Below, piece by piece: positions 32,940 to 51,225 of a stretch of 64,000 nucleotides of DNA. The position numbers were made by a program, and so were the translations under genes. Source of the stretch: a virus; IMG/VR virus record IMGVR_UViG_3300021963_000051, positions 1 through 64,000 of that record. One strand, written 5' to 3'. The notes beneath the pieces were generated by a model, which saw only the letters and a program-made list of their open reading frames with translations, was not told where the DNA came from and made no database searches. Positions within the stretch are counted from its first letter, which is position 1. Each line of letters starts with the position of its first letter.

Positions 32940-33008
32940 AAGTGCGTTTTTCCATTGACAATCCCTACATTTTCTAGTACAATTCCAAAAAAAAGGAATA
33001 ATAATACG

Positions 33009-33902
33009 ATGACTGTACCTAATAAAAGAGTCAAATATCTAAACAATCGAGATCTACTATCAGAAATTCACAAAAGCAAATGCTCTTTCAGCAGTTTTTC
33101 ACAAAAAGACTTTAGTCAACACGATATTATTGTTGCTGATCTCAAAAAAATTACACAAAAAATTATATTAGAAGCCAAAAAAAATCGTGCCAAGCGAATA
33201 GGAATTAAAAATTTTATCATAGAACGTGATCAGGGAAATAAAAAAGTCAAATTAGCAGACCTAATACCAGATTATAAAAAAATCCCTAAAACTGATATTA
33301 TCTTCAGAATAATGACCTACGATCATATTCCACTTAGCCCAGGTAGAAAAAAAAGCACCAAAACAACTTCCGATGCTCACGAAAAGATAAACTTCCCCCC
33401 GTTTCAACACTGGAAATTTAACGAAGAAGATGAGCTTGTTTGTGTAGGTAAAAGTCATTGGAAAGGCGGAATGAAAACTGGAAAATTTTCTAAAGAACAT
33501 GGACGCATTACCGAAGAACTAGGTAAGATGTTTATCAAACTTTCAGAAAGGTATGCTCAACGTAGCAACTGGCGTGGCTATACTTACATTGACGAAATGC
33601 GCGGGCAGGCTATTCTGCAACTCAGTCAAATTGGTCTACAGTTTGATGAATCAAAATCAGAAAATCCATTTGCTTACTATACAGCAGCGGTGACAAATTC
33701 ATTTACTCGTATTTTAAATATTGAAAAGAAAAATCAAAATATCAGAGACGACATGTTGATAGAAAACGGATTAACTCCAAGCAGTACAAGACAGCACGCT
33801 CATGAGTTCGCAGAAGAAACAGCTAGACAAGCTAATTTATATAAAAATACAAGATTACCGAAAGCCGAAGAAAACATAGAAGATGAAGAGGAAACTACTT
33901 GA
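33009..33902 (+). CDS. 55: Late-transcription sigma factor gp55
   Basis: 297 residues from the ATG at 33009, which has AAAGGA about 11 bases upstream. A longer frame could open with TTG at 32955, but that has no comparable ribosome site. The conserved region (RSNWRGYTYIDEMRGQAIL, then NPFAYYTAAVTNSFTRILN and EKKNQNIRDDML) is the gp55 sigma-2-like core that recognises TATAAATA late promoters with host RNA polymerase and the sliding clamp. It is longer than T4 gp55 (185), with a Lys-rich N-terminus and an acidic tail (AEENIEDEEET). gp55 next to 47 and 46 is a known T4-like order. Confidence 0.9.
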   Translation: MTVPNKRVKYLNNRDLLSEIHKSKCSFSSFSQKDFSQHDIIVADLKKITQKIILEAKKNRAKRIGIKNFIIERDQGNKKVKLADLIPDYKKIPKTDIIFRIMTYDHIPLSPGRKKSTKTTSDAHEKINFPPFQHWKFNEEDELVCVGKSHWKGGMKTGKFSKEHGRITEELGKMFIKLSERYAQRSNWRGYTYIDEMRGQAILQLSQIGLQFDESKSENPFAYYTAAVTNSFTRILNIEKKNQNIRDDMLIENGLTPSSTRQHAHEFAEETARQANLYKNTRLPKAEENIEDEEETT

Positions 33903-38381: not shown

Positions 38382-38710
38382 GGCTAGCGCAGGCTAAATT
38401 CATGCGCCCTAGACCTGGACTTCGTGTCGCAGGGATGGATCGCTCACCGCCGAAGTGAGAACTCAACCACTACCCTACCCGGATGAAGATCACTAATCGC
38501 CGTGATTTGGTTGTTTGAATAGGTTAAACCCAAGGCAAAAAGACGCTCTTAATAGAGCACGTTTTACAAGTATGATAGCGTATACGTGTAAAGCCGCCGT
38601 TGTATGAAGACTGGGATGGAGGTACCGGACAACCGCCTCTGCTAAACACCCTAACGCTGTGTGACTATGCTACTCAGATGATGCCAAACTTCGCCCGCCC
38701 TGGGCGAAGT
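38382..38710 (+). ncRNA. Candidate structured RNA of unknown class
   Basis: The interval between the GIY-YIG gene and the next gene has no supported ORF and is about 50% GC, whereas flanking coding lines are about 20-35%. Hand folding gives seven local helices. 38382-38415 pairs GG-CTAG-CGCA with TGCG-CTAG-CC. 38419-38424 pairs with 38451-38456. 38464-38468 pairs with 38509-38513, enclosing 38487-38493/38502-38508. 38545-38549 pairs with 38554-38558. 38561-38573 pairs with 38582-38594 (one mismatch). 38619-38622 and 38626-38628 pair with 38633-38639 (3-base bulge). 38688-38696 pairs with 38702-38710. G-U pairs at 38488/38507 and 38562/38593 would be A-C on the other strand, favouring plus orientation. 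No tRNA T-loop, tmRNA ends, RNase P or group I intron core was found. Function unknown. Confidence 0.5.
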
Positions 38711-38749
38711 GTGACCACTTAATCTAGATGATACTAAAAGACAAAAACG

Positions 38750-38793
38750 CTTCGAGTCTCGTAGACGAAGAAGCGAACGAACGCAGTTCGTTC
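38750..38793 (+). other. Two adjacent hairpins before a late promoter
   Basis: The first hairpin (38750-38770) pairs CTTC-GTCT with AGAC-GAAG around a CGT loop, with a 2-base bulge. The second (38775-38793) is a perfect 8-base inverted repeat GAACGAAC / GTTCGTTC with a GCA loop. It ends exactly where ATAAATA begins. No T-run follows either, so they are not typical intrinsic terminators. They could end or stabilise the upstream RNA or bind a regulator. Confidence 0.6.
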
Positions 38794-38800
38794 ATAAATA
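38793..38800 (+). promoter_or_regulatory. Late-promoter-like CATAAATA before 38821
   Basis: CATAAATA, one mismatch to TATAAATA, 20 bases before the ATG at 38821. It abuts a perfect inverted repeat on its upstream side. It would give a very short leader for the first internal-head-protein gene. Confidence 0.5.
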
Positions 38801-38820: not shown

Positions 38821-40233
38821 ATGAAATTATCAAATATTATTATAGAACAACATTTAAAAGATGGATTAATTCTATTAGAGTCTGTATGTCAAAATCTGAC
38901 TGAGGAACAATCTAGGATTATTAAGGGAATTTATAATGAATTTAAACCTTTAATAGAAGCAAGTTTAAGCCAAGATCAGATACTACAAGTATTCACAGGT
39001 GTTGAACAACAGGCAACAGGATCGGGTAATAATAGGACACTGATAGGTAAAGGGGTTGATCTTAAAAATCAAGTAAACGATATAATCAATAAAACAGGGC
39101 AATGGCTTCAAAATACCGCTCCGGTACAGTTCGCTGATCAGAAGTTTGAAGAACTTAAAACAAAAGTTGCTGCTAAGTTCCCTAACTTAGATCGTCAACT
39201 TACTGATCTTGGTACCTGGATGAAAGACAATCCAGGTAAAAGTGCTGCTATCATTGGCGTATTAACTGCTATTGCTTCATTGGCGGGTGGACCTGCAGGT
39301 GGTGCTATAGCTGGACAGGCTCTTAGGGGTGCTGCTGAACTTATAAAAGGTGAAAAACTTTCAACTGCTGTTGGAAAGGGTATTAAAACTGCGGCATTAG
39401 GTTATCTTTCAGGTAAAGCATTTCAGATGCTTGGCGACTGGGTAGGTAGTTTTAGAGAACAATCAATACCATTTGGTCCGGAAAATACTGGCCTTGAAAA
39501 AGTTAGTTGGGGTGCTCGCAGTTCGATTACAGGTCCTGGAATGGAATGGACAAGGACTACACAGGGATTTAACGCATTAGTTCGTCCTCAAGAAGCAGAA
39601 GTCATTAGAACAGCAATGGCAGGAATCAAAGCAGGAGAACCTGGTGCATTTGATACATTGTATAAGGTAGCAAGAGAAGTAAACTCAAAAGAATATAAGC
39701 AGGCCTTAAATGGTGTAGTTCAAGGAGCCTGGGAAGCAGCTAAGTCTAATGATAGTATACTTCAATTTATTAACGTTACAAAACAAGGATTGCAAGCAGG
39801 TGCGCAAGGTGCTGTTGCAGCGTCAACTGGCAGCAAATCTACTACAAAAACAGAAAGTTTAACTAAATCCACAATAAACAAATTATTTTATAATGTAGAT
39901 CGAGCCAATATGGTATTAGATGAAGGTATATTTGATAAGATTAAACAATTTGGTCAAAACTTAACCACTAAGATCACCGCAGATAAATTAAAAACAGCGT
40001 GGACTAAGGCAGGGTCTCCTACAGATAGCGATCAAGTTGCACATTTTTTAAAACAGGCCGGTGTAAATGACACTATAATTTCTAAGGTGTTTGGTGATAT
40101 GAATATTTCTTATTCGGGAAAAACAACACCTTCAACTAACAATCAAACGGTAAATACCAATGATATTGTAGTGAGAATACAAAAACTAACTCCTGCGCAA
40201 CAAAAAGAAATTTTAGCCTTACTAGGGAAATAA
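38821..40233 (+). CDS. Probable internal head (injected) protein with capsid-targeting N-terminus
   Basis: 470 residues from ATG 38821 (MKLSNIIIEQ). An in-frame ATG at 38728 would add 31 residues, but that stretch crosses two hairpins and the late promoter. The N-terminus resembles T4 internal protein targeting peptides (MKTYQEFIAE in T4) and contains I-I-E, a candidate gp21 cleavage site. Residues about 137-177 form a Gly/Ala-rich hydrophobic stretch (AAIIGVLTAIASLAGGPAGG) that could span a membrane. The C-terminal part (KAGSPTDSDQVAHFLKQAGV, then IQKLTPAQQKEILALL) is a helical module also seen in other marine phage proteins. No enzyme motif. Inferred to be packed in the head and ejected with DNA. 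No strong ribosome site is visible. Confidence 0.5.
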   Translation: MKLSNIIIEQHLKDGLILLESVCQNLTEEQSRIIKGIYNEFKPLIEASLSQDQILQVFTGVEQQATGSGNNRTLIGKGVDLKNQVNDIINKTGQWLQNTAPVQFADQKFEELKTKVAAKFPNLDRQLTDLGTWMKDNPGKSAAIIGVLTAIASLAGGPAGGAIAGQALRGAAELIKGEKLSTAVGKGIKTAALGYLSGKAFQMLGDWVGSFREQSIPFGPENTGLEKVSWGARSSITGPGMEWTRTTQGFNALVRPQEAEVIRTAMAGIKAGEPGAFDTLYKVAREVNSKEYKQALNGVVQGAWEAAKSNDSILQFINVTKQGLQAGAQGAVAASTGSKSTTKTESLTKSTINKLFYNVDRANMVLDEGIFDKIKQFGQNLTTKITADKLKTAWTKAGSPTDSDQVAHFLKQAGVNDTIISKVFGDMNISYSGKTTPSTNNQTVNTNDIVVRIQKLTPAQQKEILALLGK

Positions 40234-40234
40234 C

Positions 40235-41089
40235 ATGAGAATAACTGAAATATTAAGTGAAAATCAAATTGACGAAGGATTCAAAGACGCCCTAGCAAAA
40301 GGAGTAGGTGGAGTAGCACAAGGTATTGGAGCCACAGCAGGTGGATTGGCAGGGGCTTGGGGACGTATGAAACAAGGTTATCAGGCAGGAAAAGCAGCCG
40401 TAGCTAATCCCGATGCTTACTTTGCTCAGCAAGACCAGCAGCCTATTGCAGCGAATACTGCTACAAATGCTTCTTCAACAACACCACCTACAGGTTCTGC
40501 TACAACACCTCCAGCAGGCGCTCCGGCACCAACTCCTGCTACAACTACAGCTCCTGCTCCTCAAGCCACGCCTGACGAATTACAAGACCTTAAGAATATT
40601 ATTGGAAAATTAAATCCTGATCAAAAACAAGACATAGCAGCACAATTGACCAAACCTGAAATACAACAACCTTCAGAGCCTGCAGCTACACCAGCTCCTG
40701 CAGCTACACCAGCTCCTGCAGGTACAAGTGTAGACATAGGACAGGTTAAACAACAAAGTGCTCAAAAGGCACAGGCAGCACAGGCTGACAAACAAACAGC
40801 TCAACAACAAATTGCCGCGACTCAAGCAGCTAATGCAGCAAAAGCCAAACAAGATGCGGCTGTAAAAGCAGCAAAGGACACTGCTATGGCAAAACCAGGA
40901 TTCCAACAGACAGCAGCGGACAAGTTAGCCATACAAAAAGCACAGCAAATGGGCATCAGAGAAGCAGTTAAGGAAAGCAAACAACCTAAAAAACCTGCTC
41001 CTAAACAACCAGCCAAGAAACCTGTTCCAGGTAAGAAGAAAAAAATAGTTGTAGAATTTAACAGTAAATTTTTAGGACAAAAGATTTAG
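40235..41089 (+). CDS. Low-complexity probable internal head protein, Lys-rich C-terminus
   Basis: 284 residues (MRITEILSENQIDEGF), starting 1 base after the previous stop. The N-terminus is alike in style to its neighbour and holds L-S-E and I-D-E, candidate gp21 cleavage sites. A Gly-rich stretch (GVGGVAQGIGATAGG) leads into a Pro/Ala/Thr/Gln-rich middle including two exact 18-base repeats, then an Ala/Gln/Lys helix and a basic tail (KKPAPKQPAKKPVPGKKKK) that could bind DNA. Its stop codon overlaps the stop of the convergent gene. Inferred role: DNA-bound internal protein. Low complexity prevents a family call. Confidence 0.5.
   Translation: MRITEILSENQIDEGFKDALAKGVGGVAQGIGATAGGLAGAWGRMKQGYQAGKAAVANPDAYFAQQDQQPIAANTATNASSTTPPTGSATTPPAGAPAPTPATTTAPAPQATPDELQDLKNIIGKLNPDQKQDIAAQLTKPEIQQPSEPAATPAPAATPAPAGTSVDIGQVKQQSAQKAQAAQADKQTAQQQIAATQAANAAKAKQDAAVKAAKDTAMAKPGFQQTAADKLAIQKAQQMGIREAVKESKQPKKPAPKQPAKKPVPGKKKKIVVEFNSKFLGQKI
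40682..40717 (+). repeat. Two exact 18-base tandem repeats (AATPAP)
   Basis: GCAGCTACACCAGCTCCT occurs twice in direct succession, encoding Ala-Ala-Thr-Pro-Ala-Pro twice within the Pro/Ala-rich linker. Likely slippage product; copy number may vary between relatives. Confidence 0.85.
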
Positions 41090-49501: not shown

Positions 49502-50677
49502 ATGTCAAAACTTTTAAATGAAAGATGGTCAGAGACCAAAGACGCTCTGCTTGAAGGCCTACAAGGTAACCGTCGTCAATCCATGGCAGTTTGCTTGGAA
49601 AACACACGTCGTTATTTGGCTGAGGCTGCAACAGCAGGTGCAACCAGCACAGGTAACATCGCTACATTAAACCGTGTGATTCTGCCAGTAATCCGTCGTG
49701 TTATGCCAACAGTTATTGCTAACGAAATCGTTGGTGTTCAGCCAATGACAGGTCCAGTTGGTCAAATTCATACTCTACGTGTTCGTTACGCTGACAGCGG
49801 TGACGGCGTTGTAGCAGGTGAAGAAGCACTAAGCCCATTCAAGATTGCTGCTGCTTATTCTGGAAATAACGTAGATGCTACACCTAAGGCTGCTGTAACA
49901 AGCCAGTTAGAAGGTGCTCCAGGTAAGCGTATGAGCATTCAAATCTTGAAGACACCAGTTGAAGCTAAGAGCCGTAAGCTATCAGCTCGCTGGACATTCG
50001 AGGCTGCTCAAGATGCACAGGCACAACAAGGTATCGACATTGAGGCAGAAATTATGGCCGCTCTAGCTCAAGAAATTACAGCTGAGATCGACCAAGAAAT
50101 CCTAGCTTCTTTACGTGGTCTTGCTGCTGTTGAAGAAACATATGACCAGTCATTAGTTTCTGGTACAGCTACATTCGTTGGTGACGAGCACGCCGCTCTT
50201 GCTATTCAGATCAATCGTGTAAGCAACTTAATTGCTCAGCGTACACGTCGTGGTTCTGCTAACTGGGCAGTTGTTTCTAACCAAGCTCTTACAATTCTAC
50301 AGAGCGCAACAACTAGTGCTTTTGCTCGCACAACAGAAGGCACATTTGAAGCTCCAACAAACACCAAGTTTGTAGGTACATTGAATGGAGCAATGCGTGT
50401 ATATGTAGATGCATACATGAGCGACACAGTTGATAACAACCAAGTTTTAGTTGGTTATAAGGGTTCAAGCGAAGCCGATGCTGCTGCTTTCTACTGCCCA
50501 TATATTCCTCTAATGAGTTCTGGTGTTGTTCTAGATCCAGCAACATTTGAACCAGTAGTTGGCTTCTTAACACGTTATGGCTATGTTGAGCTAACAAACA
50601 CAGCTAGCTCTCTAGGTAACGCTGCTGACTATCTAGGTAAGGTTGCAATTACATCTGCTAATGTAAGCTTCAAGTAA
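49502..50677 (+). CDS. 23: Major capsid protein gp23
   Basis: 391 residues with AAGGAG upstream. This is clearly shorter than T4 gp23 (521). RNRRQ-like N-terminal helix, then the prohead cleavage site RRYLAE|AATAG after Glu41, GNIATLNRVILPVIRRVMPT, NEIVGVQPMTGPVGQIHTLR and RWTFEAAQDAQAQQGIDIEA are gp23 signatures. The C-terminus ends FLTRYGYVELTNTASSLGNA. The shorter length suggests the insertion domain of T4 gp23 is reduced. Codon use is GC-richer than its neighbours, as expected for the most highly expressed gene. An intrinsic terminator follows. Confidence 0.96.
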   Translation: MSKLLNERWSETKDALLEGLQGNRRQSMAVCLENTRRYLAEAATAGATSTGNIATLNRVILPVIRRVMPTVIANEIVGVQPMTGPVGQIHTLRVRYADSGDGVVAGEEALSPFKIAAAYSGNNVDATPKAAVTSQLEGAPGKRMSIQILKTPVEAKSRKLSARWTFEAAQDAQAQQGIDIEAEIMAALAQEITAEIDQEILASLRGLAAVEETYDQSLVSGTATFVGDEHAALAIQINRVSNLIAQRTRRGSANWAVVSNQALTILQSATTSAFARTTEGTFEAPTNTKFVGTLNGAMRVYVDAYMSDTVDNNQVLVGYKGSSEADAAAFYCPYIPLMSSGVVLDPATFEPVVGFLTRYGYVELTNTASSLGNAADYLGKVAITSANVSFK

Positions 50678-50725: not shown

Positions 50726-50799
50726 GTTAAATATAAAGTCTTTATGATTTATGCGGCACCCACCGCGTAGGGCATAGAACGCTCAATAAGGAGAAACAA

Positions 50800-51225
50800 A
50801 TGGGACGTCCATTAAAGAAAAAATTTTTTAGCGCAAATGCTAATAATAACATTAAAGTACAATTTCATAACGGTACTTCAAGCGTAGCTGGTTACATTGT
50901 TCACCAAGTAGGTGCTCGTAGATTTCAGTGTAGTGACGGAACAAATCGAAGAGTATGTAAATTAGTGAACAAAGCCTCTGCAGCTATTGCGGCTGGGGAA
51001 ATGACCATTACAGTGAAACAAGATGATGGTACTATAGATCAAGTTCTTAAAATTTCAGGAAGAATGCTAACAACCTTAAATGCTGGTGGCAATACGATTC
51101 GTAGACCTTGGAATTTCAGTACTTCAACTAGTGACAGTTATGTGCAAGTTGAAGAAGCTGGTACTTCGACTAGCGCAGTTACAACAGCAACTGGTGCAAC
51201 CAACCTTGAAGGTGATGCTCAGTAA
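50800..51225 (+). CDS. Conserved small virion protein (MGRPLKKK type)
   Basis: 141 residues with AAGGAG upstream. The opening MGRPLKKKFFSAN, then AGYIVHQVGARRFQCSDGT and RVCKLVNK are shared by small proteins of marine T4-like phages found near capsid or fibre genes. The C-terminal half is Thr/Ser/Gly-rich beta. It is flanked by intrinsic terminators on both sides, so it forms its own transcript, which fits a high-copy virion protein. Capsid decoration is possible but unproven. Confidence 0.65.
   Translation: MGRPLKKKFFSANANNNIKVQFHNGTSSVAGYIVHQVGARRFQCSDGTNRRVCKLVNKASAAIAAGEMTITVKQDDGTIDQVLKISGRMLTTLNAGGNTIRRPWNFSTSTSDSYVQVEEAGTSTSAVTTATGATNLEGDAQ

Follow-up and report, generated by a model that had tools for sequence, protein, structure and literature searches.

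Two adjacent open reading frames on the plus strand, A and B, were analysed within a window of 64 kb (the whole stretch of DNA under analysis) taken from a 111,966-base IMG/VR virus record. The gp23 of the window is ~70% identical to gp23 of the jumbo T4-like phages Phosso, Vibrio phage 2.275.O, GAP32 and 121Q, and the source is an uncultured giant (jumbo) T4-like phage. Both frames and their N-terminal peptides lie where the first-pass annotation had placed them (Table 1). Upstream is a SegE-like GIY-YIG gene; downstream follow, in order, a minus-strand gp26-like baseplate gene and the genes for a 785-aa virion protein, the portal, an acidic core protein, gp21, a gp22-position protein and gp23. 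The presence of gp21, claimed earlier, is thus borne out together with that of gp23 and the portal, and the phage that carries A and B also encodes a gp21-type protease, as expected for T4-type internal head proteins. The order gp46 - SegE - A/B - gp26 - portal ... gp21-gp22-gp23 is conserved in uncultured jumbo T4-like phages.

Table 1. Positions of the features discussed, numbered from the first letter of the window
Feature	Position	Strand	Remarks
gp55 gene	32955-33902		
T4-late-promoter-like box, CATAAATA	38793..38800	+	28 b before ATG of A
ORF A	38821..40233	+	470 aa; one copy per record; family unnamed
Leader of A, residues 1-46	38821..38958	+	gp21-type sites, both conserved: LLE20|S (codon 38878-38880), LIE46|A (codon 38956-38958)
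Hydrophobic Gly/Ala hairpin of A, about residues 138-190	39232..39390	+	possible membrane segment; conserved
Compact alpha/beta domain of A, residues about 220-310	39478..39750	+	pLDDT mostly >90
E368 codon in VLDE|G of A	39922..39924	+	conserved internal gp21-type site
ORF B	40235..41089	+	284 aa; unnamed family
T4-CTS-like leader of B, MRITEILSENQIDE14|G	40235..40276	+	strict pattern match; E14 codon 40274-40276
Gly/Ala-rich amphipathic region of B, residues 15-60	40277..40414	+	conserved in relatives
KLNPDQK module of B	40571..40654	+	common to C-terminus of A (40153-40230)
Lys-rich tail of B, residues 244-284	40964..41086	+	net +11; ends in EFxSxFLGxxI
gp21-type prohead protease	47741..48370	+	Peptidase_S77, 5.7e-25
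gp22-position scaffold candidate	48389..49480	+	phrog_10922; many LxE|A/S/G sites
gp23 major head protein	49502..50677	+	conserved LAE41|A

The late-promoter-like box CATAAATA retains its TAAATA in relatives. An alternative in-frame ATG for A at 38728 was rejected, since it lies upstream of this box and inside a conserved RNA stretch, and it is also contradicted by the relatives, which align or start at the equivalent of 38821. Between SegE and A, the Rfam Polynucleobacter-1 RNA (RF01718, 105.7 bits) matches 38382-38516, and it occurs between the same genes in six related records (L013, L018, L022, L033, L058 and L073). Because the conserved structured stretch extends ~300 nt past the Rfam model, to about 38800, with compensatory changes in 25 of its 109 predicted pairs (six sequences), the RF01718 match seems to belong to a larger RNA of the phage. 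A freshwater-2 RNA (RF02980, 55.8 bits) lies downstream of gp23 at 50731-50802, directly before the ORF at 50800.

The structure model of A, of low confidence overall (pLDDT 67), has a helical leader (residues 1-46) and a helix at the C-terminus, and Foldseek returned no fold match for it at E<=0.001. The Gly/Ala hydrophobic stretch described in A by the first-pass annotation was recovered and is conserved, the maximal 19-residue Kyte-Doolittle mean being 1.5-2.1 in 31/31 relatives, at much the same position in each. E368 precedes a small, helical AWxxAGSPTDS domain (about residues 387-435). B, likewise modelled at low confidence (pLDDT 59), is basic and predicted to be mostly disordered, with Pro/Ala linkers and a long helix (168-219); the Lys-rich tail ascribed to it earlier is real and conserved in relatives. 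IMG/VR holds 182 relatives of A, the best 80 of which were kept for analysis, and conservation was read from alignments of 31 diverse members for A and 23 members for B. In the uncultured records checked, A occurs once per record wherever found, mostly in the conserved position gp46 - SegE - A - gp26 - portal and occasionally elsewhere, and B relatives directly follow A in many A-bearing records. Two further relatives of A lie on two contigs (L176 and L177) of a marine Neomarinimicrobiota MAG from the Red Sea, which are probably phage contigs binned into the MAG. In five records (L015, L024, L028, L086 and L089), A-like proteins are fused behind 100-670 aa of extra N-terminal sequence; some of these begin MNLFDLFE or MKVTEILVE and carry additional [IL]xE sites between the parts, a polyprotein-like layout.

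Neither protein matches a Pfam, PHROG, NCBIfam or PADLOC family beyond isolated weak hits. The proposal that their bodies are unlike known T4 internal proteins held, as searches of Pfam, PHROG and NCBIfam gave no match to IPI, IPII, IPIII or Alt; there was likewise no family match to the T4 core proteins gp22, gp67 and gp68. The profile of A found no match in the PDB, and tblastn with A, B, the C-terminal domain of A, one B relative (L017) and one A relative (L056) found none in 50,697 phage records. Profile A1 had no match in Vibrio phage 2.275.O, Phosso or GAP32; a weak match of profile A3 to NVP2275O_437 of Vibrio phage 2.275.O (E 0.0017) was discarded because the full protein lacks a CTS-like start and appears unrelated. 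Since A is not found in the nearest cultured relatives with the same head genes, it appears to be dispensable for some such heads.

T4 gp21 cleaves after L/I-X-E (PMC9026906), and sites of this type are strongly conserved in both families, far above controls. Columns with at least 80% Glu were taken without preselecting sites and were compared with a fixed rule (P3 I, L or V; P2 free; P1' small) that was set after earlier results, those for gp23 among them, had been seen. The 31-member alignment of A has five conserved Glu columns, three of which (E20, E46 and E368) bear the gp21 signature, the other two having no hydrophobic P3. At E20 (Glu 97%), P3 is I, L or V in 29/29, P2 is taken by ten different residues and P1' is S or G; at E46, Glu and a P3 of I, L or V are both found in 31/31, with eleven residues at P2 and A or V at P1'; at E368 (Glu 96%), P3 is I, L or V in 26/26 and P1' is G or A. 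The fixed rule matched three columns in A, two in gp22 and one at the gp21 C-terminus, against 0/76 conserved Glu columns in eleven control proteins (gp55, gp47, gp46, SegE, gp26, m41086, gp_31961, gp_31660, gp_28197, the 785-aa protein and the portal), counts that cannot be read as probabilities because related sequences are not independent. The portal protein of T4, gp20, is uncleaved (PMC5694885).

In B, E14 is Glu in 23/23 with P3 I, L or V in 22/23; B fails the fixed rule, as its P1' varies between G, L and I and so is not always small. In two relatives (L035 and L065), ~60 aa are inserted before the site and [IL]xE|G is still kept. The first-pass annotation had placed the sites at E9 of each protein, a position that gives way to E20, E46 and E368 in A and to E14 in B as the best conserved; [IL]xE at residue 8-11 is found in 10/31 A relatives versus 18/23 B relatives, and E9 of B (codon 40259-40261) is less conserved than E14. 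Its claim for gp23 fared better, LAE41|A being conserved in 19 relatives as LxE41|A/S/T, a site that the strict rule missed with a smaller sequence set, and its NLIAE in the acidic core protein was not recovered as a conserved site. A conserved hydrophobic-x-Glu may also be structural.

Conserved sites of this kind would also be expected if A and B were scaffold-like assembly-core proteins, as T4 gp67/gp68, that shape the prohead, are cut up by gp21 and are expelled, with nothing ejected into the host. This is the main rival reading: A resembles T4 gp22, gp67 and gp68 in carrying several conserved L/I-x-E sites, one of them internal, the core proteins of T4 undergo cleavage at several points (PMC9026906), and every uncultured record checked has a single A. 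We nevertheless hold it to be possible rather than likely, since A (net charge +9) and B (+12) are basic, not acidic, the predicted mature stretch of A (47-368) has a conserved compact domain between sites and no conserved site inside, and the partners at the A locus vary, unlike a scaffold. A role as tail or baseplate proteins (e.g. hub or tape-measure partners) that carry [IL]xE by chance would agree with the neighbouring gp26-like hub gene and 785-aa virion protein and with a single weak PHROG tail-fibre match (E 0.0018); however, that match was rejected as present in only 1/31 A members, and gp26, the 785-aa protein and gp_28197 have no site-like columns against three in A, which makes such a role improbable.

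Likeness of the start peptide is by itself weak evidence, because about 13% of the phage's own ORFs of at least 125 aa (10/75) carry [ILF]xE at residues 7-12, and the bare motif was left out of the evidence because its position profile across whole genomes is only weakly enriched at the N-terminus. A strict T4-CTS pattern, which among 220 T4 ORFs picks IPII, IPIII, gp21, gp24 and gp2 (null 0.36), selects 1/88 ORFs in this genome, namely B (null mean 0.09). Of the two T4-like targeting peptides originally proposed, that of B therefore stands; A does not match the strict short-CTS pattern and has instead a longer, 46-aa leader with two conserved sites, closer in kind to the propeptide of gp23. 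Within 2.5 kb of A and on its strand, 29/219 ORFs match the strict pattern versus 3/431 elsewhere in the loci (Fisher 9e-12, a value inflated by relatedness). The tagged bodies, several of them unrelated, include B, a family C whose gene immediately precedes A (starting MRLNEILxExQLDEAP...) and single proteins in L017, L027, L067 and L025, so that one N-terminal peptide on different bodies, which the first-pass annotation had suggested seeking among relatives, does occur at this locus. A short KLxPxxKxxLLxxL segment is common to A, B and C (A versus B: hhalign E 1e-5, probability 83%, 31 columns). Elsewhere, five ORFs of one virus record of 347 kb start MR[AS]xEF[LVI]xE (null 0.3), one of the five having DUF6321; starts of this kind, located at L086 5364-7084 and G015 43329-43901 and 247028-247782, form another CTS-like tag class in large phages.

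T-even internal proteins form a diverse defence set in which the CTS alone is conserved (PMC3012670), and one tag on many bodies is seen here too, as would suit injected counter-defence proteins like T4 IPI whose bodies are selected by host restriction or other defence. We consider this unlikely for A and B, which resemble neither IPI nor Alt nor any PADLOC model, A moreover being kept in each uncultured record and not hypervariable. Like T4 IPII and IPIII (CTS MKTYQEFIAE) and IPI, the present system combines a short N-terminal tag, M[KR]..E[hydrophobic][IL]xE, with a gp21-type protease in the same genome, a basic body and diverse bodies behind one tag (PMC9026906). It differs from them in that the bodies are dissimilar and the genes sit in a head/baseplate cluster; in addition, B carries a second site, E14, that is better conserved than the first, and A combines a longer two-site leader with an internal site. 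The sites also recall the gp23 and gp24 propeptides of T4 (LxE|A/S with P2 free), the start of B resembling gp24 MAKINELLRE|S, although A and B are not shell proteins. By analogy with the ejection proteins of podoviruses and of the giant phage SPN3US, the latter head-internal and protease-trimmed (PMC5694885), A and B may be expected to behave as head-internal proteins, but no sequence similarity to these was found and the protease family is different.

Together, these data argue that A and B are probably prohead cargo cut by gp21. This reading is supported by a site signature found at three of five columns in A, at none in the controls including the portal and again in gp22 and gp21, by synteny with head and baseplate genes, the late-promoter-like box and the conserved hydrophobic segment, by CTS-like starts that cluster at A on unrelated bodies while the strict pattern finds only B here, and by the B insertions that spare the site. 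It is weakened by the lack of any match to A in the nearest cultured relatives, the failure of A to fit the strict CTS pattern, the possible structural role of hydrophobic-x-Glu, the variable P1' of B and the low-confidence models.

Extrapolating from T4, we propose that the N-terminal leaders dock A and B in the prohead core and that, as the prohead matures, gp21 would cut after (I/L/V)-x-Glu. The cuts in A would follow E20 and E46, with a probable internal one behind E368, and those in B would follow E14 and perhaps E9. What would remain in the head with the DNA is a helical mature A that includes the hydrophobic hairpin and the compact alpha/beta domain, along with a mature B that is basic and mostly disordered and bears the amphipathic Gly/Ala helix and the Lys tail. 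Because the families carry conserved sites for the phage's own capsid protease, packaging in the head and delivery with the DNA seem probable for such cargo, although for ejection along with the genome, taken separately, we would put the chances slightly below even. The likeliest role might then be DNA crossing or holding at the inner membrane, through the hairpin of A and the Gly/Ala helix of B, while B may coat the DNA; both suggestions are guesses from composition, and a membrane role is rather doubtful. Host take-over or counter-defence would be a possible alternative function. More speculatively, and with little confidence, the A locus may serve uncultured jumbo T4-like phages as a dedicated site for loading cargo, in which a constant membrane-active ejection protein, A, is accompanied by changing CTS-tagged partners (B, C and others), the shared KLxPxxK peptide docking them on A or the core and A forming or feeding a delivery conduit for the tagged proteins.

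If the prohead-cargo reading is right, capsid-targeted injected proteins would be recognisable in uncultured phages by a conserved cleavage signature and a tag at a fixed locus, with no need for similarity to any known protein. The unnamed families A, B, C and others would then provide a list of proteins that probably accompany the DNA into the host, some of them candidates for a part in membrane passage or in host take-over, and T4-style packaging rules would become testable across giant phages.
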